The translations under genes were made by a program, and so were the position numbers. Shown here piece by piece: positions 10,226 to 23,461 of a stretch of 35,242 nt of DNA. Positions within the stretch are counted from its first letter, which is position 1; each line of letters starts with the position of its first letter. The stretch covers positions 1 to 35,242 of the forward strand of contig CAMNEA010000027.1 of NCBI GenBank assembly GCA_946536145.1. Reading direction: 5' to 3'. The notes under the pieces were generated by a model. It was not told the DNA's origin and did not search any database. It worked only from the letters and a program-made list of their open reading frames with translations. This DNA is from an uncultured Butyrivibrio sp. (GTDB lineage: Bacteria > Bacillota > Clostridia > Lachnospirales > Lachnospiraceae).

Positions 10226-10311
10226 GTTCTAAATATTGCAGTTATAGGGTATGATAATTAATAGGGGAAATAGCGTTTTATTATTTGAACTGTTCTGATG
10301 CGGAGAGCTTT

Positions 10312-12627
10312 ATGAGAGTATTGATTTTTGTATTGATTTGTCTGGGCAGTGCACTGATGGTTTACAATATCGTCCAATACTACAGGTTCCTTATCCATGT
10401 CACGAAGATGGAGAGCCTTGGTGAGACCAGAAAGGCGGCAGTGATTCCTATTGTTCTGCTTGCCTGCTTTCTGGTTGGATATCTTATAGTCGGTTTTCTG
10501 GGTAAGCCGGATATTGTTGTTGCGCTGATCCTCTTTGGAGGAAGTATATATGTCTCACTTGTTCTTCTGTTTTTATACAAGATCGTGGGCAAGCTTGAAA
10601 ACAATGAGATTCGGCTTGAGATGCTCTACACTGAGCTTAGAAATGATCTTGAGGATCTTACCAAGAATTCGCTCTCGGTCTTCAGGATAAATGTTACAAA
10701 AGATCTGATCGAGGAGCGGGGAGGCACGGATCTGTACAAGAGTGACCTTGATGCCGGGAGCTATTCGCAGCTCCTGGAGAATCGCAGTGGATCTCTCTTT
10801 TTCGTTAATGATACACAGAGCAGAAAGCTCTTTTCCAGAGAGGGGCTTCTTGAGTATTTCCATGACGGTCATACATCCGCTGAGGAGATACTGTTCTGCA
10901 AAAGAGATTCGGGGCAGACATGCTTTGTCAAGCTCAGAGCATCTCTTGCAGTGCAGCCTGTCACGGGAGATGTGGTGGCATTTATAACCGAGAGCCTCTA
11001 TAACGATGAAATGGTAAATATGGCTCTGATGAATAAGGCACTTGCAGGTCAGTACGACATGATTGCCTACCTTGTTGACGACAGATTCGGAGTTGTCATC
11101 GGGGACATTGGTTCAGGAAAAAAGGGAAATATTGTCAGTGACAACAAAGAGGGACTGTATGAGGACTATATCAATCATAAAGTTGCGCCTGCTATATGCG
11201 GCAGCCCGGAGGAAAAGGCCAAAGTTCTTGACAGCCTGAGCCGGAAGAGTATTGAAAGCTGCCTGACAACACAGGAACCCTACGAGGTAAACTTCACCGC
11301 TGAGGTTGAAGGGGAGACATATTATAAGCGATTCGTGTTTTATACGGTAGATCCAAAGGCAAGATTCTATCTGCTTCTTAAGTCGGACACGACCGATGCA
11401 AGGCGCCAGGAAGCAGATAGGAGCCGGCGACTTGAGGAAGCTCTTGAAAAGGCTAAAATTGCAAGCAGCGCAAAGACAACCTTCCTCTCAAATATGTCCC
11501 ATGATATCCGCACGCCTATGAATGCCATAATAGGCTACATAAATCTTGCAAGACAGGAAGATTCAAAGCCGGAGCAGGTCATGGAGTATCTCGATAAGAT
11601 AGATTCATCAAGTCATTATCTGCTTGCGCTTATCAACGATATCCTTGAGATGAGCAGGATTGAGAGCGGCAAGATCGAACTTGAACCTGTTCCTGTGGAC
11701 CTTAGGATCCTGCTTGACAAGATCCGGGATATGTTTGCGTCCCAGATGAGCGAGAAGAAAATAGATTTTGAGGTTTCCTATGACGGAGTCAGGAACCCGG
11801 TGGTCGTATGTGATGAGAACAGGCTTAACCGTGTTATTCTTAATCTGTTGTCAAATGCGTACAAATTTACACCTGAAGGCGGCAGGGTATCTGTATCGAT
11901 GAAGCAGTACAACTGCCCGAGGATAGGTCATGGCGGTTATGAGCTTCGGGTAAGGGATACCGGCATAGGCATGAAAGAGGAGTTTGCAAAGCACGTCTTT
12001 GACGCTTTTGAACGTGAAAGGACCAGCACTGTGAGCGGTATCCAGGGCACAGGGCTTGGAATGGCGATAACCAAGAACCTTGTTGAGCTTATGGGCGGCA
12101 CTATTGAAGTTGAGACTAAAGCCGGAAAAGGAACTGAGTTCATAATACGGCTGTCCCTTCCATACAATGATGAGAAGGAGACGGCTGCCATTAGGAAATC
12201 CGAGCAGCCGGGAGAAGAGGAAGCAGAAGCCGACTTTTCCTCTGTTCAGGTGCTACTTGTCGAGGACATCCGTGTAAACCGTGAGATTGCTTCCGCAATT
12301 CTTCGCAAGATGGGATTTGTGCTTGATACTGCAGAGAACGGCAGGATGGCAGTTGAGAAGGTGGCAAATTCAAAGCCCGGGTTTTACAAGCTCATACTCA
12401 TGGATATTCAGATGCCGGAGATGGATGGATACGAGGCTACCCGCAGGATAAGGAGCCTTGAGGATCCGGAACTGTCCGGGATACCTATTATTGCCATGAC
12501 TGCAAATGCCTTTAGTGAGGATGTCCAGAAGGCAGAAAAAGCAGGGATGAACGGACATATTTCAAAGCCTCTTGATGTTGCGCAGATGAAAAAGACACTG
12601 ACCAGAGTTTTAGTGACATGCAGGTAA
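10312..12627 (+). CDS. Membrane hybrid sensor histidine kinase 1 (TM-PAS-like-HisKA-HATPase-REC)
   Basis: 771-residue sensor kinase with an attached receiver. Three transmembrane segments occupy about residues 3-85. A short coiled coil follows, then one or two PAS-like domains (about 105-365), judged from pattern only. HisKA has its phospho-accepting H397 in [13 protein letters not shown]. The ATPase domain has an intact N box ([19 protein letters not shown]), DTGIGM and GTGLGMAI. The receiver (about 646-765) has acidic pocket E651/D652 and acceptor D698 in [16 protein letters not shown]. The ATG at 10312 is preferred over an in-frame TTG at 10285 because GGAGAG lies 4 nt upstream. First gene of a run of five; the next kinase starts 55 bp downstream. 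It has no output domain, so phosphate must pass to another protein, possibly the Hpt domain of the third kinase. Confidence 0.93.
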
Positions 12628-12682
12628 TAACAGGAAAAATTCTTTTTCATGCAAATTATTATAAAACTCGTTGGAGAAAACA

Positions 12683-14728
12683 ATGGATGATCTTAAAAGT
12701 GAACAGCTGATGCTGTCTGTTGCGACACTGGCAGCAATTGCCTGTGCTATACATAATGTCCTGAAAGGATGGGAATTCTGGGTGCCCTGGGTAATACTTG
12801 TCAGTACAGCAGCACTCTGGTGGATTCATATTACACAGAAGTTTCAGCGCGATATGAGGATCACGCTTTATTTCGTATACTCCGCGTTTATTGTATTCTA
12901 CAATGATATTCATGGGATCAGCCCCCTGGAGCTGACTTTGTCTTTTGCGCTTTTCCTGTCGGTAACTGCTCTTGCAGACCGTTTGATACTGCTCGATATT
13001 GCACTTATGGAATACCCTGTGGTAATGCTGTTCCAAGTCTATGTCACCTCCAGGAATAAAACCTCTGATTACAGTGTTTTCTCGATAATTTATGCTGCAT
13101 TTCAGTTCCTGATCATTATGATCTTTTATCTGATTTCCCGTATAGGACTAAATCACAGAATAAGTGAAAGGATCGGAAGAAAAAAGTGGATGGAAGCGGT
13201 CAATGCCAACGACCGTGATATGGAGGACTTTTTATCCAACATATCTCACGAGCTGCGGACTCCAATAAACGTGATAAACGGAATGACCGCTCTTATGCAA
13301 AAGACAGGAGACTGCCCTGAGATAGCATCGATCCAGGAGGCAGGGGTGAGGCTTGCGCATCAGGTGGAAGATATTCAGGACTATACTGAGATCATGCGCG
13401 GAGCCATAGTTCTTGATGAAGAGAACTACATATTTACCTCTCTTATCAATGATGTGGTGGCAGGCTACAGTTCTTCGTGTCTTAGCAGCAAGCTTGAGCT
13501 GGTAGTAGATCTTGACCCAAAGACACCGGCTATTCTGTGCGGTGATTTCAAAAAGCTTCACAAGATATTCAGACATATAATTGACAACGCTTTCAAATTT
13601 ACCAGGGAAGGCGGGATTTATTTAAAGGTATTTACCATGCCTCAGGACTATGGTGTAAACCTGATAATCGAGGTGACGGATACAGGCATTGGCATGTCCA
13701 GGGAGGATATGTCCAGGGTTTCAAACGGTCTTTATCAGGCCAACAAAAAGCGTGACAGGAGCACCGGAGGAATAGGGATTGGTCTGCCTATAGTTTACGG
13801 AATGGTCCATAAGATGGGAGGCTTCGTTGTGATAAACAGCGACGGACACGGAGGAACCAAGGTCAGGGTGGCCATTCCGCAAAATGTGATAGATCCCTCG
13901 CCTTGTCTATCACTTGGCGATGAAAATAAAAAATCGTATGTACTCTATTTCAAACTCGGAAGGCACAAAGTGCCTGAAGTCAGGGATTATCTAAGATCCA
14001 TGGCGCTTAATCTGGCTACGGGTCTGAACAGAAAGCCCTATATCGCCTGTGACAAAAGTGAACTGGAGCAGGTTCTCGATGATAAGTCCATATCCTGCAT
14101 TTTTGCCGGACAGGAAGAGTATGAGGCTGACAAGGACGCTCTTGATGCGCTCTCCGTAAATGGCTATGAGGTAGTAATTGCGGCAGCTCCGGGATTTAAG
14201 GTGTCGCCCGGCAGCAGGGTTGTCTGCGTGCCGGTGCCTCTTTATGCCTTCCCTATTGTAAAGGTCATGAGCGGGTCTGTTACAGATAAGGGCAGCGGCA
14301 AGGCCGGAAGTCTTGATCTAACGGGAATAAAGGCTCTCATAGTTGATGACGAACCCATGAATATCATGGTTGCCGAAGGAATCTTTAAGAACTACGGAAT
14401 GGTTGTTGACAGCGTCACGAGCGGCAAAGATGCTATCACAAAGTTTGAAAACGAAGAGATGGATGTCATATTTATGGATCATATGATGCCTGAGATGGAT
14501 GGCGTTGCCGCTATGAAGATCATCAGGAGAATTGCGGCAAGAACTCAGAGAAATCCTGTGATAATAGCTCTTACTGCCAATGCCCTTAGCACCTCCAAAG
14601 AGATGTTCATCAGGGAGGGCTTTGACGGCTTTATTGCAAAACCCATAGATATGGCTGATTTTGAGCATGTTATGAAGAGCGTCCTTCCCGGGGCGGTAAA
14701 ACGCAGAGAAGGGAGGAGCAAGGCATGA
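12683..14728 (+). CDS. Membrane hybrid sensor histidine kinase 2 (TM-HisKA-HATPase-degenerate REC-REC)
   Basis: 681-residue kinase. The first 160 residues are hydrophobic, about six membrane passes, with no obvious extracellular sensor domain. HisKA has H189 in SNISHELRTPINV. The ATPase domain has HKIFRHIIDNAFKFTREGG, DTGIGMS and GGIGIGLPIVYG. Between about 414 and 540 lies a segment with receiver-like alternation but no DD pocket or acceptor aspartate, probably a dead receiver. The C-terminal receiver (about 550-670) is complete: VDDEPMN and D599 in VIFMDHMMPEMDG. The ATG at 12683 has GGAGA 5 nt upstream; an in-frame TTG at 12671 overlaps that RBS. The stop overlaps the start of the third kinase by 4 nt (ATGA), so the two are translationally coupled. 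Confidence 0.92.
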   Translation: MDDLKSEQLMLSVATLAAIACAIHNVLKGWEFWVPWVILVSTAALWWIHITQKFQRDMRITLYFVYSAFIVFYNDIHGISPLELTLSFALFLSVTALADRLILLDIALMEYPVVMLFQVYVTSRNKTSDYSVFSIIYAAFQFLIIMIFYLISRIGLNHRISERIGRKKWMEAVNANDRDMEDFLSNISHELRTPINVINGMTALMQKTGDCPEIASIQEAGVRLAHQVEDIQDYTEIMRGAIVLDEENYIFTSLINDVVAGYSSSCLSSKLELVVDLDPKTPAILCGDFKKLHKIFRHIIDNAFKFTREGGIYLKVFTMPQDYGVNLIIEVTDTGIGMSREDMSRVSNGLYQANKKRDRSTGGIGIGLPIVYGMVHKMGGFVVINSDGHGGTKVRVAIPQNVIDPSPCLSLGDENKKSYVLYFKLGRHKVPEVRDYLRSMALNLATGLNRKPYIACDKSELEQVLDDKSISCIFAGQEEYEADKDALDALSVNGYEVVIAAAPGFKVSPGSRVVCVPVPLYAFPIVKVMSGSVTDKGSGKAGSLDLTGIKALIVDDEPMNIMVAEGIFKNYGMVVDSVTSGKDAITKFENEEMDVIFMDHMMPEMDGVAAMKIIRRIAARTQRNPVIIALTANALSTSKEMFIREGFDGFIAKPIDMADFEHVMKSVLPGAVKRREGRSKA

Positions 14729-17700
14729 AGTATTTGGAACGGTATAAAAGACAGTTATTTGCATACCTCAACGATTCAAACATCAATATCGCTGACAGAT
14801 CCTTTATGGTGTTTTCAATCTCCATGGTCATTGCCCTGTACCTGGCGATACCCTGCGGAATGATAATGAAAGAGCCGCCCGTGGCGACAATTGCAACAAT
14901 GCTTGGGGCGATATTCTTTACTCTTTATGTGGTTTATGTCTACAAAAGGAAAAAGATAAAACAGGCGAGGATTATTCTTGCGGGGATACTGTCCATGATA
15001 TTCCTCCCTGTGATGTATTTTACCAACGGCGGAGCTTCCGGAGGTACTCCCATATGGATCATCCTGGGCGGCTACTATATGGTACTGATATTGGATGGCA
15101 TGACAAGGAGAGTCATGTGTTTATCAAGCGCGATCATCATGCTGGTATGCTGGATCGTTTCGTACTACCATCCGGAATATTTAGTTGAGTTTGACAGGCC
15201 GGACAGATATTTTGACACCTATGTGGCGCTTATAATCGTATCTTCTGTACTGGCGGTGGTAACGGCCTTCCAGACAAGACTCTACCAGAGGGAAGTAAGG
15301 CTCTCCAATGAGAAGACAGAAGAACTTGAAGCGATGAATAAGGCGCAGAGCCGCTTCTTTTCCAGCATGAGCCATGAGATCAGGACACCTATTACGACTA
15401 TACTTGGCTATAATGAGATCATATTAAGGCAGCAGGACGCATCGGATGAGATCCGAAAGGATGCGATGAATATCCAGGGGGCAGGTAAGCTCCTTTTGTC
15501 CCTGATAAACGACATCCTCGATGTGAGCAAGATCGAGGCCGGCAAGATGGAGATCATCCCGGCGGACTACAGCGTAGCGTCACTTCTTTCGGAGATAGTC
15601 AATATCATCTGGCTAAAGGCAGAGAGAAAGGGACTTCAGTTCAACGTTGACGTAGATCCGAATGTTCCGGCGACACTCTATGGTGATGAGGTCAGGATAA
15701 AGCAGGTACTGATAAATCTTCTGAATAATGCGGTCAAGTACACCAGACAGGGATCTGTAAGCCTTCATATGGAGTGCGAGTACCTTGAAAACGGAGATGT
15801 TCAGCTGACTATAACTGTTTCCGACACCGGCATCGGCATAAAGGCTGAGTCACTGCCACATCTTTTTGATATCTTCAGACGTGTGGATGAGGGTAAGATC
15901 CGCCATATAGAAGGGACTGGTCTTGGCCTTTCCATAGTAAAACAGCTTATTGATCTTATGGACGGTAAGATAAGGGTAAACAGTGTCTACTCCCAGGGGA
16001 CATCTTTTGAGGTGTCACTAAAGCAGGGCGTTTCCTCCAAAAATCTGATAGGCAATTTCAACGTCTCAAGCCTTGGCGATATGTCCGCGGCTGAGAGATT
16101 TGAGCATTTATTTACGGCACCGGGTGCAAGGATACTCATAGTAGATGACAATGAGATGAATCTGGAGGTGGAAAAGAAACTTCTCGAGGGCACGGATATG
16201 ACAGTGGATCTGGCATCTTCCGGACAGGAGGCACTTGGACTTACGCTTCGCAACCGCTACGATGTTATCCTGATGGATCATCTGATGCCTGAGATGGATG
16301 GAGCTGAGTGCTTTGAGAAGATCCGCAGCCAAAAGGGCGGAATGAATCTTAATGTACCAATCATTGCTTTTACAGCCAATGCCGGAAGCGAAGTGGTCCA
16401 GCTTAGCAACAGTACAGGTTTTGACGGCTACCTGGTAAAACCTGTCTCGGGACATGAACTGGAGGATATGCTTCTTTTGCATCTTCCAAAGGACAAGATT
16501 GTGAGCAGCCCGAACCTTGTGATGGCAGACGCGTTCAGAAATACTGCGGGAAGATATTCCAGAAAGAAGGCCGTGGTGGTTGCTGCCAACAGCGTCAGCG
16601 ATCTGCCGCCGCATCTTGCCGATAAGCTTGGTATAAGCATCATCCCCTGCAGGGTATTTACCAATGAAGGCGTCTTTTATGACAATGTCGATATAGATGC
16701 TGAAGAACTTGTCAGGTATATGAAGGACAAGGATAAGATAGTAAGCACTGAGCCTCCGACAACGGAGAGCTATGTGAAGTTTTTTGCTAAGGAACTTGAA
16801 AAGGCTCATCACCTCATTTACATCACATTTTCCAGCAGGATCAGTGAGGAGTATGACAGGGCTGTTAAGGCTTCCAAGAGTTTTGGAAATGTGTCGGTGG
16901 TTAATTCTGAGACGCTCTCTAGTGCATGCGGAATACTTGCTCTCATTGCGGTACGCCTTGCCCGCCAGAATATGCCTGCCGAAAAAATAGTGGCAGAACT
17001 TGAGAGCGCCAAAAAGAGGATACACTGCAGCTTCATAACCAAGAGCACCGATATCATAACAAGGCAGGGAAGGCTTAATCCTATGATCAACAGAATTATG
17101 AATATTCTCTGGCTGCATCCGGTTCTTAGGCTGCGAAATGATAATATAGAAGTGGGACGGCTGTTTTTTGGCAATGTGAAAAGGTGCTACGAGCGGTATC
17201 TTGAGCATGCTTTTAAAGGAAAAATGGCACCTGATCCATCGCTCCTTATTGTTCCATACGTCGGTATGGAGGAGGAAGATCTCTTGTGGATTGAGGAGTG
17301 GATCAGGGAGAGAGCACTGTTTGAACACGTTATTTTCCTGCGGACATCTGCCGGCGTTGCAGCCAACTGCGGAGAGGGCTCCTTTGGACTTCAGTATCTT
17401 ATTAAGGGTGAGAAAGACTACTCTCTGGGTGCATTTTTTGATGAGGACTTGTCTTCGGATAAAGAAACATCTTCTGATACTGACACATCGGCCGATCAGA
17501 ATTTAAGTAAGGCCAAGGAGTCTTTCGAAGGGGCGAAGGATACGCCTGATGTTCCTGTAAATCTTAAGGAAGAAGACATCTTTGATATCGACGGAATTAC
17601 TATAGAAGACGGCCTTAAGTACTGCGGAAGCATGGATGCCTTTAAAAAGTTCCTCAATACTTTTTATGACACTATAGACAGTAAGTCAGATGAGATCGAA

Positions 17701-17907
17701 GATGCATATAGAAGGAAAGATATATCTTTTTATACTATCAAGGTACATGCCCTTAAGAGCACATCGAGGATCATCGGCGCAAGAGAACTTTCGAAGCTTG
17801 CAGAATCTCTGGAGATGGCCGGAAAAGATGGCAATCAGGCTTATATCGATGAAAACACCGGCAAACTGTTAGAACTGTTCAGAAGCTATAAAACTATTGC
17901 CCACTAA
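14725..17907 (+). CDS. Hybrid histidine kinase 3 with DegV domain and Hpt domain (TM-HisKA-HATPase-REC-DegV-Hpt)
   Basis: 1060 residues, in order: about six transmembrane segments (25-195); HisKA with H217 in SSMSHEIRTP; an intact ATPase domain (NLLNNAVKYT, DTGIGIK, GTGLGLSI); a receiver (469-585) with VDDNEMN and D518 in VILMDHLMPEMDG; a DegV/EDD-fold domain (about 615-890); an acidic Ser/Asp/Glu linker (903-945); and an Hpt domain (about 950-1060) with H1008 in KVHALKSTSRIIGA. The DegV assignment rests on VVVAANSVSDLPPHLADKLG (a DSTADLP-like start), VSTEPPT (TSQPS-like), ITFSSRIS (HISSKLS-like, S703/S704) and TRQGRLN (RRGGR-like, R780/R783). DegV and FakB proteins bind a fatty acid. Where FakB-type proteins have a conserved TH before the last glycine loop, this protein has N881 (AANCGEGSFG). 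A lipid-sensing role is inference. Confidence 0.9.
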   Translation: MKYLERYKRQLFAYLNDSNINIADRSFMVFSISMVIALYLAIPCGMIMKEPPVATIATMLGAIFFTLYVVYVYKRKKIKQARIILAGILSMIFLPVMYFTNGGASGGTPIWIILGGYYMVLILDGMTRRVMCLSSAIIMLVCWIVSYYHPEYLVEFDRPDRYFDTYVALIIVSSVLAVVTAFQTRLYQREVRLSNEKTEELEAMNKAQSRFFSSMSHEIRTPITTILGYNEIILRQQDASDEIRKDAMNIQGAGKLLLSLINDILDVSKIEAGKMEIIPADYSVASLLSEIVNIIWLKAERKGLQFNVDVDPNVPATLYGDEVRIKQVLINLLNNAVKYTRQGSVSLHMECEYLENGDVQLTITVSDTGIGIKAESLPHLFDIFRRVDEGKIRHIEGTGLGLSIVKQLIDLMDGKIRVNSVYSQGTSFEVSLKQGVSSKNLIGNFNVSSLGDMSAAERFEHLFTAPGARILIVDDNEMNLEVEKKLLEGTDMTVDLASSGQEALGLTLRNRYDVILMDHLMPEMDGAECFEKIRSQKGGMNLNVPIIAFTANAGSEVVQLSNSTGFDGYLVKPVSGHELEDMLLLHLPKDKIVSSPNLVMADAFRNTAGRYSRKKAVVVAANSVSDLPPHLADKLGISIIPCRVFTNEGVFYDNVDIDAEELVRYMKDKDKIVSTEPPTTESYVKFFAKELEKAHHLIYITFSSRISEEYDRAVKASKSFGNVSVVNSETLSSACGILALIAVRLARQNMPAEKIVAELESAKKRIHCSFITKSTDIITRQGRLNPMINRIMNILWLHPVLRLRNDNIEVGRLFFGNVKRCYERYLEHAFKGKMAPDPSLLIVPYVGMEEEDLLWIEEWIRERALFEHVIFLRTSAGVAANCGEGSFGLQYLIKGEKDYSLGAFFDEDLSSDKETSSDTDTSADQNLSKAKESFEGAKDTPDVPVNLKEEDIFDIDGITIEDGLKYCGSMDAFKKFLNTFYDTIDSKSDEIEDAYRRKDISFYTIKVHALKSTSRIIGARELSKLAESLEMAGKDGNQAYIDENTGKLLELFRSYKTIAH

Positions 17908-17927: not shown

Positions 17928-20327
17928 ATGAAAAAGAAAGTTGTAGCAGTAGTGTTGGCGGTATCTATGATGTCAATATCAGCCTTTGCCGGAGGGTGCG
18001 GCAGCAGTACGATCAGTTCAGGTGATGACGTATCCACAGAGACGTCCCAGGGAAAAGAGCAGGCCGCTTCTTCGCAGGAAGAGAGTACATCCGCGCGGAA
18101 TTCTGATGGCAGCAGTGCAGATAACGGGGCGCAGGAATCCGGGGAAGATCAGGACGGCGAACAGGCAAAAAGCGACAGTGAAAGTACGAAGGACACCGGC
18201 GCAGAGAGTGACAGTGGCAGCGAAGATGATGGGAGCGACGGGATAGAGCTGTCTGCAGACTCGCTTCTTGGAACCAAAGAAGTAATATATTATGACGAGG
18301 ATCTTGTCCCTTGTGTTAAGTCGTACACGGTTTCGGAGGACTTCTCTGATGTTTATGTCCCCGACAGGTTCAAATTTACCTTTGCGCTTGATGAAGACAG
18401 CGATTATGAAAATGGAATTGAGCTTAGAAAAGCCCTTGCTAAAAATCTGTTTGCCGTTCAAGGGGGGTATGGTGACAGCGAATTCTTTGATGTCTATGAG
18501 GGAAACAGGTACAGCCAGTTTCCGAGTTTTGTCACAGTGGATTCTCTGATGCACACATATCATCTTTACTTCGCTTATCTGATGAAGACTACGGAGAAAG
18601 AGTACATTTCGGAAGAACTAAAGAGCCTGAGCCGCAAGATGCTTGAAGAGTCAAAAAACCAGTATAAGCAGCTTATGGGCAGTGACTGGGAAAAAGCAGC
18701 GCTTCGAAATCTGGCATTCTTTTATATTGGAAGCATTCTTCAGGATGATACAGTTGATTATCCCGTAACTGACAGCTCTTTTGCCGAGATTGTCAGCAGT
18801 GAGATGAAAAAGATAATGGCAGCTGAGGGCATAGACACCTGTGCCATCAGTGGCGAGTATGAGGATTATTCACAGTACAAGCCAAGGGGATACTATGAGG
18901 GTGATGAGGAGCTTGAGAAGTATTTCCGCGCAATGATGTGGTATGGAAGGATTCCATATTCTACTGACGCAGAAGAGACTGTCAAGAGCGCCATTTTAAT
19001 GAATCTGGCAATTGACAGGGCAGGTAAGGAGAGCTGGGAAGCAATCTACAAGATAACCGCATTCTTTGCGGGTAAATCCGACGATGCCGGGTATCCTGAT
19101 TTCATGCCGCTGATAAGTGAATGCTACGGCAAGGTGCCTGCAGAAGCTGACCTTACCGGTGACAGCGGCGCACTGAAGTCATTTATGGCATCTGTCTCCT
19201 CTATCAGGGGGCCGAAGGTTAATTCAATTCCTGTTGAAGATGGGGATGATCCGGTTAAGCCTTCCTTCAGATTCATGGGGCAGAGATTCACCATTGATGC
19301 CGCTATCATGCAGAGGCTTGTCTACAGCGCGGTCAAGGACAACGGCGCGGGTGAAAAGAGATTTCTTCCCGATACTCTTGACGTAGCCGCAACACTTGGA
19401 TCGGAAGATGCCATGAAGATTCTTGACGAGAGCGGAGCTACGGGCTTCGAGGGATATACTGACAACATGACTCTGCTTAAGGAGATTTATACCGCCGATG
19501 ACCCGGCGATTTGGAATGCAAGTTTATATTCAGGGTGGCTCAATACCTTAAGACCCATGTTTGAAAAGAAGGGCGAGGGATATCCATCCTTCATGCAGTC
19601 GGATGAGTGGTCAAAAAAGAACCTTGAGACGTTTGCAGGCTCTTATGCAGAGCTTAAACATGACACAATCCTCTACGCCAAGCAGGTAATGGCAGAGATG
19701 GGCGACGGCGATGATGGTGAGATCATTGACGACAGGGGATATGTTCAGCCTGAACCCGTAGTTTACAGCAGATTTATCTTCCTCTCGGATACGACAAGGG
19801 ATGGACTTAAGTCTTACGGGATGCTATCAGATGATGCCGAAAAGGATCTGGACAGACTCTCAGAGATAGGAAGGCGTCTTCTTACAATTTCTGAAAAAGA
19901 GCTCAAGGAAGAGACCTTATCAGATGAAGAATATGATTTTATCAGAGAATATGGCGGAGACCTCGAGCATTTCTGGCGTGAAGCTATGGACAATGGTGTA
20001 GAAGATCTTGCGTACAGTTATCAGGCACCCTGCCCGGTTATCGCAGATATCGCAACCGATCCCAACGGAACAGTTCTTGAAGTAGGAACAGGTCCTGCCA
20101 ATTACATCTACGTGATATTCCCGATTGATGGTGAGCTCCATGTGGGCAGGGGATCAGCCTACAGCTTCTATCAGTTTGAGACTGACATATCGGACAGACT
20201 TACTGATGCCGAGTGGCGCGAAAGACTTGAGGGCGGCCATCTCAATGAAAACTGGGAGTGGATTGAAAATGAGAATAAGCCGGTTCAGCCTGACTGGACA
20301 CAGAGCTATCGCATAGGAAACAGGTAA
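17928..20327 (+). CDS. DUF3160-domain lipoprotein
   Basis: 799-residue surface lipoprotein of unknown function. The signal peptide ends in a lipobox FAGGC with C24 as the lipid-modified residue. A low-complexity Ser/Asp/Glu/Gly linker (about 25-110) would span the cell wall. The rest matches the DUF3160 pattern, with the characteristic FVTVDSLMHTYHLYFAYLM near residue 205 and a long alpha-helical body. No enzyme active site was recognised. RBS AAAGGAGAG lies 9 nt upstream, and only 20 bp separate the gene from the third kinase, so it belongs to the same transcript. Its stop shares one base with the CapA start (TAATG). The position suggests a sensed or regulated envelope component of the kinase system, but this is inference. 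Confidence 0.85.
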   Translation: MKKKVVAVVLAVSMMSISAFAGGCGSSTISSGDDVSTETSQGKEQAASSQEESTSARNSDGSSADNGAQESGEDQDGEQAKSDSESTKDTGAESDSGSEDDGSDGIELSADSLLGTKEVIYYDEDLVPCVKSYTVSEDFSDVYVPDRFKFTFALDEDSDYENGIELRKALAKNLFAVQGGYGDSEFFDVYEGNRYSQFPSFVTVDSLMHTYHLYFAYLMKTTEKEYISEELKSLSRKMLEESKNQYKQLMGSDWEKAALRNLAFFYIGSILQDDTVDYPVTDSSFAEIVSSEMKKIMAAEGIDTCAISGEYEDYSQYKPRGYYEGDEELEKYFRAMMWYGRIPYSTDAEETVKSAILMNLAIDRAGKESWEAIYKITAFFAGKSDDAGYPDFMPLISECYGKVPAEADLTGDSGALKSFMASVSSIRGPKVNSIPVEDGDDPVKPSFRFMGQRFTIDAAIMQRLVYSAVKDNGAGEKRFLPDTLDVAATLGSEDAMKILDESGATGFEGYTDNMTLLKEIYTADDPAIWNASLYSGWLNTLRPMFEKKGEGYPSFMQSDEWSKKNLETFAGSYAELKHDTILYAKQVMAEMGDGDDGEIIDDRGYVQPEPVVYSRFIFLSDTTRDGLKSYGMLSDDAEKDLDRLSEIGRRLLTISEKELKEETLSDEEYDFIREYGGDLEHFWREAMDNGVEDLAYSYQAPCPVIADIATDPNGTVLEVGTGPANYIYVIFPIDGELHVGRGSAYSFYQFETDISDRLTDAEWRERLEGGHLNENWEWIENENKPVQPDWTQSYRIGNR

Positions 20328-21769
20328 TGAGAAATCTCTTTTCCAAAGACAATAGAAGATGGCTGCTGCCACTGATTTTTGTGGCGGCAGCCATTTGCTG
20401 CGCCGCAGCGGTTTTTTGGTATCTTCCAAGACCAAAGGGAGCCTGGCAGGAAAAGCGCTTTGTGATCTATGAAGGTATTGATGGAGTTCTCACAAAAAAG
20501 AGATTCAGAATAATAAACGGTAAAGGCAAAACAACCTACAAGAGCGATACCGGCTTCCTTGTACAGGATGCCTTTTCAACAGACCTTGACAGGGACGGGG
20601 AAAAAGAGATCATTCTTCTTTTGTGGAAAATCGGAAAATACGGCAAACACAGACCGTTCTGGGTGGAGCGCGATGAGATTACTTTTTCCCAGCATGTCTT
20701 TATCTACTCAGTATCTGAGAGCGGAAGCATCAGAAACAGATGGGGCGCCTCGGAGATTGGCAGAGAGATAGCAAGGATGAAGCTTATGGAAAAGAATGAC
20801 AGCCTCATTCTCACTGAGGATGTAAATGGAAACTGCGCCGTCTGGAGATGGGAGTCCTTTGGGCTAAAGACAATAGACAGCGACGTATCCTTTGCGGTCT
20901 TTGGCGACAATATCATCCACAGTCAGATATACGAATACGCTGACAGGAAGATGAACGGCTGCTATGACTTTCTCTATGAACCGTTTTATGAGGATATTCA
21001 AAGCGTCGATATTGCTGCCTTTCAGCAGGAAACCATGCTTGTGGACAAGGCGTCGGCAGTGAGCGGATATCCTATGTTTGGATCTCCTGTCGCAGTCGGA
21101 GAGGCAATTGCCATAGCAGGCTTTGACATAGCATCCTGTGCCGGCAATCATGCTTTGGACAGAGGCATTTACGGTATAAACGTCACAACGAAATTTTACC
21201 GTGACAAAGGTATCATCTGCCTGGGGGTACAAAGCGGAGACGAGAGTGCGTTTAGGCCTTACGAGATATTGACGAAAAACGGAATATCTTTTGCGCTCTT
21301 TGACTACACCTATGGAACGGGAGAGATGGACATCTCCAAAGATTATCCCTTCGCTGTCCACTATCTGCCGCGAAACAGCAGCGAGGAGGAAACGCTGGTA
21401 AGAGATCTAAGGAGCGCAAGAGCTGAGGCTGACTTCGTCATAGTCTTTGTCCACTGGGGAAATGAGTATGAGAGTGATGTTACCTCAGACCAAAAGCACA
21501 TGGCGCAGCTCTTTGCCGAGGGCGGGGCTGACGCAGTCATTGGGACACATCCCCATGTGCTGCAGGAAACAGAGATGATGAAAAGACCTGACGGAGGGGA
21601 TATGCTCATCTATTACTCCCTTGGAAATTTCAGGGCATACCAGGGACAGACGGAGGAGACAAAGACCGGAGGTGAGGCGCTTTTTACAGTGGAACATTCC
21701 TATGACGGAGTAAGGATAAAGGATTTTGAACTGAAAAAAATAGATGCCTATGTGAAACCTGAGTATTAG
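20327..21769 (+). CDS. CapA-family metallophosphatase-like membrane protein
   Basis: 480-residue protein anchored by one N-terminal transmembrane segment (about 11-32). Residues 40-185 form a beta-rich region that includes the calcium-loop-like STDLDRDGEKEIILL, as in FG-GAP/VCBS repeats. The CapA (PGA_cap) domain runs from about 188 to 440: FGDNIIHSQIYE, the metal-site motif CAGNHALDRG, VFVHWGNEYE and IGTHPHVLQETE. CapA proteins act in poly-gamma-glutamate or other cell-surface polymer metabolism; here the substrate is unknown and no capB/capC genes are nearby. It overlaps the DUF3160 gene by one base and is the last gene of the five-gene run. No clear terminator follows. Confidence 0.88.
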   Translation: MRNLFSKDNRRWLLPLIFVAAAICCAAAVFWYLPRPKGAWQEKRFVIYEGIDGVLTKKRFRIINGKGKTTYKSDTGFLVQDAFSTDLDRDGEKEIILLLWKIGKYGKHRPFWVERDEITFSQHVFIYSVSESGSIRNRWGASEIGREIARMKLMEKNDSLILTEDVNGNCAVWRWESFGLKTIDSDVSFAVFGDNIIHSQIYEYADRKMNGCYDFLYEPFYEDIQSVDIAAFQQETMLVDKASAVSGYPMFGSPVAVGEAIAIAGFDIASCAGNHALDRGIYGINVTTKFYRDKGIICLGVQSGDESAFRPYEILTKNGISFALFDYTYGTGEMDISKDYPFAVHYLPRNSSEEETLVRDLRSARAEADFVIVFVHWGNEYESDVTSDQKHMAQLFAEGGADAVIGTHPHVLQETEMMKRPDGGDMLIYYSLGNFRAYQGQTEETKTGGEALFTVEHSYDGVRIKDFELKKIDAYVKPEY

Positions 21770-21823: not shown

Positions 21824-23461
21824 ATGAGAAGTATGCGGCTTTGTATTTTAATTTCATATATTCTGATGGCGGTTCTGTGCCTTGCGCCTGTTAAGGTGAG
21901 GGCAGAGAATGATTTGGAGCGCCAGTACCGGATTCTTTTTCTTTCCTCCTACGAGTATTCAAATGCTGCAGTTCCTGAACAGCTTGATGGGTTTGAAAAG
22001 GGGCTGGAGGGCATTAATGTGGATATCAGCTACGAGTTCATGGATGCTGACAAGTACTACAGCAGCACGGATATCATGAACTTCGACAGGTACCTTCGCC
22101 ACAAGGTCTTTACCGTGGGGGACTACGATCTTCTGGTGGTGGCTGATGATCCGGCTCTTCGGTATGCGATAAACAACAGGAGCGTTCTCTTCCCTGATGT
22201 GCCGATGGTCTTTATGGGCATAAACAGCACAACTGAAGCGACCACGGCTTTTGCAATGAACAATACGACAGGCATTGCGGAAACACCCGATTTCGAAGGC
22301 AACTATGAGCTGATGAAGAATCTTTTCCCGAGTCGGAATCATATCAACGTCGTGCTGGATTCCTCGGTTGCCGGTCAGGGCGATTATGTCGAGTTTATGA
22401 AGTTTAAGGAGCAGCACCCGGAGCTTTCAAGCACCATCATCAACACATCATACTACACGGCAGGCGGGCTGAAGGACCTTCTTGGATCACTGGGAGAGAA
22501 TGATCTTATCCTGTTTCTGGACTTCACTCTGGATGGAGATAAAAACAGCTATTCCATGAAAAGCGCCGCGGCCTTTCTGTCTGAATATGCACCTGACATT
22601 CCGATATTCAGACTTGCGTCTTCCGATATAGGGCATGGCGTTTTGGGAGGTATTTCTTATTCCTACAATGATGCGGGCAGGATAACGGGTGAGGCTGCAA
22701 AGAGGATACTGCAGGGTGAGGATGCTGATGAAATGCCGCTCATGACCTCGGCGGTGACAACGGCGTTCTTTGAACAGGGCAGCATGGACAGATTCGGAAT
22801 AAAGTATTCCCAGCTTCCGTCGGGGACGGTCGTCATCAATGAACACGACAACCTGGCAAGGTTTTACAGGAATAACAGGCTCATAAGCAACCTTGCGATT
22901 GTAATCATACTTTTGATGATCGTTATCATCCTCCTGCTCTACATTTCCAATTACCACAGAAAGAAAGCGGTAAGGACCGATTTCCTCACCCAGATGCCCA
23001 ACAGGAAGAAACTCATTGAGGATATGAATCAGGTGATCAACCTCTCATTCCCCTATGGGATCATCATGATGGATGTGGATCATTTCAAAGACATCAATGA
23101 TACGTATGGGCACAAGGTAGGAGATGAGATCATCGTCGGAGTCGGGGAAAGGTTAAAGAAATTTAGCAAAAATGATATTACGTTTGCAAGGCTCGGCGGA
23201 GATGAATTCTGCGGACTGTTCCTGGCGCCGTCTGAAGAAAAGGCCGTGAAAATCTGTAAAGAAATCATCTCCGGCAGCAAGAAGAGCTTTAAGACCTCTG
23301 CCGGAGATATCAAACTTACAGTGAGTATCGGATGTGCCATGTTCCCTGTGGATACGGATAACAGGCAGATTGTAATGGAGTGCGCGGACAGGGCACTTTA
23401 TGTGACTAAGGAAAACGGAAGAAACGGATATACCTTATTTGGCAGCATAGATAAGTCCTGA
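21824..23461 (+). CDS. Membrane diguanylate cyclase with extracytoplasmic binding-protein-like sensor
   Basis: 545 residues. A signal anchor (about 8-26) is followed by an outside domain (about 30-350) that resembles ABC-type substrate-binding proteins of the tryptophan/sugar-like uncharacterised group (RILFLSSYEYSN, DYDLLVVADDPALRYA, PMVFMGINS). A transmembrane helix (about 353-375) leads to a GGDEF domain (about 385-545). The catalytic loop RLGGDEF (458-462) and MDVDHFKDIND metal site are intact, so it should make c-di-GMP. The RxxD inhibitory site is absent (KNDI at the aligned place). The start is uncertain: ATG 21824 has no RBS, and the next ATG at 21833 shortens the protein by only 3 residues. 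The 3' end overlaps the opposing sugar-binding gene by 27 bp. Ligand unknown. Confidence 0.9.
   Translation: MRSMRLCILISYILMAVLCLAPVKVRAENDLERQYRILFLSSYEYSNAAVPEQLDGFEKGLEGINVDISYEFMDADKYYSSTDIMNFDRYLRHKVFTVGDYDLLVVADDPALRYAINNRSVLFPDVPMVFMGINSTTEATTAFAMNNTTGIAETPDFEGNYELMKNLFPSRNHINVVLDSSVAGQGDYVEFMKFKEQHPELSSTIINTSYYTAGGLKDLLGSLGENDLILFLDFTLDGDKNSYSMKSAAAFLSEYAPDIPIFRLASSDIGHGVLGGISYSYNDAGRITGEAAKRILQGEDADEMPLMTSAVTTAFFEQGSMDRFGIKYSQLPSGTVVINEHDNLARFYRNNRLISNLAIVIILLMIVIILLLYISNYHRKKAVRTDFLTQMPNRKKLIEDMNQVINLSFPYGIIMMDVDHFKDINDTYGHKVGDEIIVGVGERLKKFSKNDITFARLGGDEFCGLFLAPSEEKAVKICKEIISGSKKSFKTSAGDIKLTVSIGCAMFPVDTDNRQIVMECADRALYVTKENGRNGYTLFGSIDKS

Follow-up and report, generated by a model that had tools for sequence, protein, structure and literature searches.

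A two-kinase operon with a DegV domain

The stretch of DNA analyzed here (the window, meaning the whole 35,242 nucleotides (nt), to which all position numbers refer) comes from an uncultured Butyrivibrio sp. and encodes a hybrid histidine kinase in which a domain of the DegV/FakB type lies between a receiver (REC) and a histidine phosphotransfer domain (Hpt). The open reading frame (ORF) of this DegV kinase overlaps by 4 nt that of a second hybrid kinase immediately upstream, here called the partner. The two proteins and their parts, with lengths and positions in amino acids (aa), are as follows.

12671..14728, + strand: partner hybrid kinase, 685 aa, with a membrane part, HisKA, HATPase, a pseudo-receiver and REC, and without an Hpt match; the start is TTG as listed, and a later start is possible
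13916..14281, + strand: pseudo-receiver of the partner, a receiver-like domain without a recognizable receiver sequence
14725..17907, + strand: DegV-containing hybrid histidine kinase, 1060 aa, transmembrane (TM)-HisKA-HATPase-REC-DegV-Hpt, a single open frame with an ATG start
14809..15267, + strand: membrane region of the DegV kinase, aa 29-181, five to six TM segments by hydropathy only
15343..15543, + strand: HisKA, aa 207-273, phospho-His H217 (Pfam 1.9e-17)
15682..16026, + strand: HATPase_c, aa 320-434 (Pfam 2.5e-27)
16132..16473, + strand: REC, aa 470-583, phospho-Asp D518 (Pfam 4.6e-23)
16579..17400, + strand: DegV/FakB-type domain, aa 619-892 (Pfam E 2.8e-39); key residues T675, S707 and N881 (carboxylate site), and L813 and F815 at the positions of FakB K203 and R205
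17650..17844, + strand: Hpt, aa 976-1040, phospho-His H1008 (Pfam 2.9e-6)

The ORF and its Pfam matches bear out the first-pass annotation in describing a 1060-residue kinase-receiver-DegV-Hpt protein with acceptors at D518 and H1008, and the DegV/EDD domain that it placed at 615-890 corresponds to the Pfam match, with a structure model supporting the FakB/DegV fold. Its six membrane passes hold in part: five hydropathy segments exceed the threshold, whereas the sixth falls below it and is plausible by eye. The DegV kinase thus carries the complete phosphorelay set of HisKA, HATPase, REC and Hpt, with acceptors H217, D518 and H1008. The first two are invariant, each in 115/115 fusions having a HisKA match, and H1008 is conserved in all eight aligned Hpt-type members. 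Another genome of the genus encodes a counterpart 73% identical to the DegV kinase. A chance match or annotation artefact is ruled out by the E-value of 2.8e-39 and by the recurrence of the fusion as one clade with 120 unique members.

In the partner the acceptors H193 and D603 are likewise invariant in all 106 upstream kinases aligned, two of which are themselves tandem DegV kinases. The middle domain of the partner gave no significant match to the REC profile in an Hhalign comparison, but resembles a receiver by fold comparison. By sequence, both members of the pair are hybrid kinases bound to the membrane, and each has its phospho-His and phospho-Asp sites intact.

Across the family, such pairs follow a pattern in where the Hpt lies. 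Among the 120 fusions unique by sequence, 97 lack an Hpt and follow an Hpt-bearing upstream kinase, while eight, the window's among them, bear an Hpt and follow an Hpt-less one. The other 15 comprise seven in which a fragment or some other frame lies upstream, two second tandem copies and six with no upstream frame; four of these six are cut fusions, and the remaining two (L055 and L057) are divergent lone genes and real exceptions to the pairing. A later set of 32 loci from the genus, gathered once the pairing rule was known, contains 19 and 11 loci that obey the rule, zero exceptions and two loci without an upstream kinase on the contig. At most 30 nt separate the start of the fusion from the stop of the upstream kinase in 95 of 106 cases, and the two frames overlap in 72 of 106. 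The DegV-kinase gene accordingly takes second place in what looks like a conserved operon of two kinases, with the Hpt belonging to the pair, so that the working unit appears to be this operon and not the single fusion of the first-pass annotation. Its further suggestion, that a DegV domain between receiver and Hpt gates phosphotransfer, fails as a general rule: 112 of the 120 unique fusions have no Hpt match, their frames ending a median of 4 residues past DegV (a few being cut by the contig), and 97 have the Hpt on the upstream partner. The REC-DegV-Hpt order is a trait of one subclade, and since there is one Hpt per pair it is not essential to the role of the DegV domain.

Several loci depart from the usual pair. 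L086 and L096 carry tandem DegV-kinase copies behind one Hpt-bearing partner kinase. The divergent HATPase-DegV proteins L055:4790-7375 and L057:4451-7060 match neither HisKA nor REC and have no kinase partner upstream. Downstream of the first lies a 459-aa gene with a weak dCache match and a GGDEF match, downstream of the second a 459-aa ORF.

Phyletic spread, descent and the FakB site

The fusions are the best matches of searches, one of which kept the best 80 of 250, and not a random sample; the 32 added genus loci were not compared for duplicates with the 120 unique fusions, and at L125, L139 and L147 the DegV ORF was not displayed in the greedy ORF view. Kinase-fused DegVs occur in at least 34 of 200 genomes sampled from the window's bacterial family, not counting the window's own genome, which has two. 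In 41 genomes of the genus, among the matches listed, at least 27 have a match running through DegV, 23 of those into the Hpt. The best 79 of 250 relatives include many labelled Lachnospiraceae, others labelled Eubacterium, Acetatifactor, Clostridia and similar, several Oscillospiraceae/Oscillibacter and one metagenome-assembled genome (MAG) labelled Treponema. The pair in a Treponema-labelled MAG (L138) is ordinary-looking, suggesting horizontal transfer or misbinning, and a locus titled 'uncultured Bacteroides' (L075) has a DegV 100% identical to that of L034 from the window's family, which makes its label doubtful. Among the cultured carriers are Oscillibacter sp. 1-3, Schaedlerella arabinosiphila (DSM 106076) and Pseudoflavonifractor sp. 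524-17. In 398 genomes sampled from across the phylum, the matches listed outside the family lie in frames of at most 580 codons, and none of the 20 DegV frames retrieved from that sample has a kinase domain.

A tree was computed from 106 DegV sequences: 52 standalone, 14 of the 28 Hpt-type and 40 of the 124 other fusions. In it all fusions group together, and among them those with an Hpt make up a single subgroup; both groupings have an ultrafast bootstrap (UFBoot) value of 100. Fold and tree together show that the DegV domain derives from a standalone FakB-type fatty-acid-binding protein, and sequence and model support a real FakB/DegV fold with acyl-tunnel segments.

Only alignment was used to assign the pocket residues, which are numbered after Staphylococcus aureus FakB1 as in PMC8892158. 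The passages of that paper on the site describe T62, S95, S171 and H270 as a network round the fatty-acid carboxylate, mutation of which destabilizes FakB, and give R173 and R205 as completely conserved, R205 being key to FakA binding and membrane contact (PMC8892158). The corresponding passages of a second paper report that the R173A variant performs exchange but gives no activity in the kinase assay, and name three segments forming the top of the tunnel (PMC9136124). In the window T675 aligns with T62, as had been proposed, and N881 does stand in place of the FakB His at position 270, a family-wide substitution with Asn in 112 of the 120 unique fusions. The carboxylate serine had been sought at S703/S704, whereas FakB1 S95 aligns with S707. 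Of the two arginines suggested, R783 corresponds to R173, while R780 is absent from the published site residues encountered in these passages. The carboxylate network of the window therefore retains T62 (T675) and S95 (S707) and has H270 replaced by N881; R173 is also kept (R783), but position 205 is F815.

This last position belongs to the most telling change, which the first-pass annotation missed: K203 is replaced by L813 and R205 by F815. The alignment of 203-205 was anchored on the following glycine (G816), HMMER having shifted FakB1 itself by one residue there; that shift would likewise leave position 205 without a basic residue. Positions 203 and 205 are both basic in none of 152 fusions, and neither is basic in 150 of them. 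In standalone DegVs both are basic in 50 of 51 and the carboxylate grip is complete in 51/51; these comprise 31 sequences (two from the window's own genome and 29 loci of the best Pfam scorers) and 20 further ones from among the best profile matches, a selection that may overstate standalone conservation. A scan without preset sites recovered eight positions conserved in the 51 standalone sequences and lost in the 120 fusions, namely 62, 92, 165, 171, 196, 203, 205 and 264, with Thr at position 62 becoming mostly Ser. Twenty top-scoring standalone relatives, which share the Cys after the His position, keep R173, K203, R205 and H270 throughout, so that the loss appears tied to fusion rather than to an aberrant line of FakB proteins.

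The grip itself is complete in 28/28 Hpt-type and 85/124 other fusions, and the tunnel segments are near their FakB1 length (a, 31-36 residues vs 36; b, 22 in all; c, 7-10 vs 10). Hence, at the level of sequence, the whole sampled subclade of the window and most fusions keep the carboxylate-holding hydroxyls and the acyl-tunnel segments, and the fusions are without the basic docking residues for FakA and membrane contact. Judged by R205, the domain belongs with FakB in fold and ancestry but not in function. The earlier proposal of lipid binding without acyl phosphorylation accordingly appears the better reading, for which the family-wide absence of K203/R205 is a stronger reason than the H270 to Asn change on which it had been based.

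Neighboring genes and candidate outputs

Of 104 partners, 14 lie at a contig edge or have no further upstream gene and 90 have one, of which 88 were scanned after two copies were dropped. These upstream genes contained a receiver in 67 cases, HD_5 in 44, GGDEF in eight and a chemoreceptor signalling domain (MCPsignal) in eight, and their consensus shows the HD-GYP signature. Given these receiver and HD-GYP genes, cyclic di-GMP (c-di-GMP) turnover is a natural candidate output in many relatives. The window's genome has 11 HD_5 matches elsewhere. The genes around the pair in the window are the following.

10285-12627: third hybrid kinase, further upstream of the partner; the gene at this place varies among relatives
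17928-21769: DUF3160 protein, 20 nt past the end of the DegV kinase, with a PGA_cap protein directly after it
21824-23461: GGDEF protein with an ABC_sub_bind part, possibly a ligand-regulated diguanylate cyclase

The DUF3160, PGA_cap and GGDEF genes downstream of the DegV kinase are replaced by other genes in four Pfam-scanned Hpt-type relatives.

A candidate fatty-acid receptor and its relation to known systems

In the simplest account of these observations, the DegV domain would provide a pocket for a regulatory ligand, and the kinase pair that contains it, tethered to the membrane, would share a single phosphotransfer domain. In the window and its subclade the domain keeps the residues for holding an acyl carboxylate and has lost those for passing it to FakA; the kinase-embedded FakB-like domain thus probably works as a sensor. 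With moderate confidence, its ligand may be taken to be an acyl carboxylate, in the simplest case a free fatty acid, serving as a regulator rather than as cargo for FakA, whose occupancy would alter the balance between the kinase and phosphatase activities of the pair. The phosphate would then pass from His to Asp on the receivers, to the one shared Hpt of the pair (carried in the window's subclade by the DegV kinase and not by the partner) and on to a downstream receiver, which in many relatives would be the adjacent HD-GYP c-di-GMP phosphodiesterase. A broader scenario, in which a single conversion of a FakB in gut Firmicutes gave rise to a fatty-acid receptor inside the cell whose kinase pair and shared Hpt control c-di-GMP enzymes, can be offered only tentatively.

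Several observations weigh against the sensor interpretation. It draws on fold and alignment, and fold need not equal function. The replacement of H270 by Asn and the loss of R173, non-basic in 24 of 28 Hpt-type members though kept in the window, could weaken binding, and the loss of R205 removes the published route by which FakB takes up fatty acids from the membrane. At least one grip feature is missing in 39 of the 124 non-Hpt fusions and both hydroxyls in 16, and of the 12 further non-Hpt loci from the window's genus only four have Ser at position 95 and only three Asn at position 270. Because of these losses part of the non-Hpt fusions cannot grip a carboxylate in the manner of FakB; part of the fusion family has shifted to a different ligand or to none. 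In L064, L065, L067, L069 and L071 both hydroxyls are lost and the gene upstream of the partner has 422-452 codons, the size of the L061 chemoreceptor, so that the loss of a ligand may be linked to a changed output there. The divergent L055 and L057 have no partner kinase at all. No HD-GYP or REC-GGDEF neighbor was found for the window's pair, and no recurring fatty-acid gene among the 25 of 34 upstream-gene families listed. Finally, a profile of partner Hpts scores the Hpts of DegV kinases (86-100 bits) no better than several nearby Hpts of other kinases, and the window's Hpt may have either moved between the pair members or been gained anew.

The same hydroxyl losses in 16 fusions would also agree with the DegV domain being a scaffold or interaction module, contacting for example the partner kinase, with its pocket vestigial or empty. 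The tight pairing with the partner fits this too, as does the now mostly hydrophobic character of the two formerly basic surface positions, which a new buried interface predicts. Against it, the grip is complete in every Hpt-type fusion and in 85 of the 124 others, and the tunnel segments stay near FakB1 length; a pure scaffold is thus rather unlikely, though scaffold and ligand-pocket roles may coexist. Alternatively, the ligand might be something other than a free fatty acid, such as an acyl phosphate, another acyl carboxylate or a gut metabolite, bound at a repurposed Asn-Cys-Gly-Pro site. This would agree with Asn at position 270 in 112 of 120 fusions and with the fusion-specific conserved residues H798, Q872, K873 and S875 (L872 and R873 in the window itself), but T/S62 and S95 are the residues that hold the fatty-acid carboxylate in FakB1, in the passages on its site (PMC8892158), and the tunnel segments persist, making this quite improbable. 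That the DegV kinase is a tethered FakB still serving FakA is rejected as highly improbable: a FakA-like_M match occurs in 29 of the 31 genomes searched (in the window's own incomplete genome only in a 107-codon frame), but the docking residues are gone, K203 and R205 being both basic in 0/152 fusions, and the fusion-bearing genomes retain separate canonical DegVs.

These proteins constitute a family of hybrid histidine kinases with a FakB-derived candidate input domain that is apparently undescribed in the open-licence PubMed Central (PMC) papers reached by the searches; the DegV passages of PMC3146951, PMC12688256, PMC10146087 and PMC9912610 contain no description of a DegV-histidine kinase fusion. 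If the sensor interpretation is right, gut Lachnospiraceae could sense intracellular fatty acids through phosphorelays probably linked to c-di-GMP, and a metabolic carrier would have been made into a receptor through loss of its enzyme-facing surface. Even with a different ligand, this would be a widespread kinase family having a new class of candidate input domain, and the rule of one Hpt per kinase pair makes cooperation between the two kinases directly testable.

With respect to known systems, the domain of the window resembles FakB/DegV (S. aureus FakB1, PF02645) in its complete fold, its tunnel segments and its equivalents of T62 and S95; it differs in being embedded in a hybrid kinase, in the loss of K203/R205 and in having H270 replaced by Asn, so that service to FakA is not expected. 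DhaQ of Lactococcus (2iu4, 'dihydroxyacetone kinase operon co-activator') stands outside any histidine kinase. Another DegV fusion from the same bacterial family, the 594-aa DAK2-FakA_M-DegV protein L073:5617-7398, joins DegV to Fak-type enzyme domains and not to a signalling kinase. A similar layout is seen in Xanthomonas, where RpfC, a hybrid kinase with five TM segments, REC and Hpt, binds the fatty acid DSF (diffusible signal factor) and the signal reaches the HD-GYP phosphodiesterase RpfG (PMC5391125). As in RpfC/RpfG, the input region crosses the membrane several times and lacks a large outer domain, and the HisKA-HATPase-REC-Hpt set is present. Many relatives also have an HD-GYP gene next to the pair (HD_5 in 44 of 88 upstream genes), but the window's pair does not. 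In contrast to RpfC, two kinases here go with each Hpt, and a FakB-type domain in the cytoplasm is the candidate for fatty-acid binding; no common descent beyond the shared domains is implied. If the ligand is indeed a fatty acid, the DegV kinases might represent a Gram-positive counterpart to RpfC/RpfG fatty-acid sensing, built from a lipid-scavenging protein.
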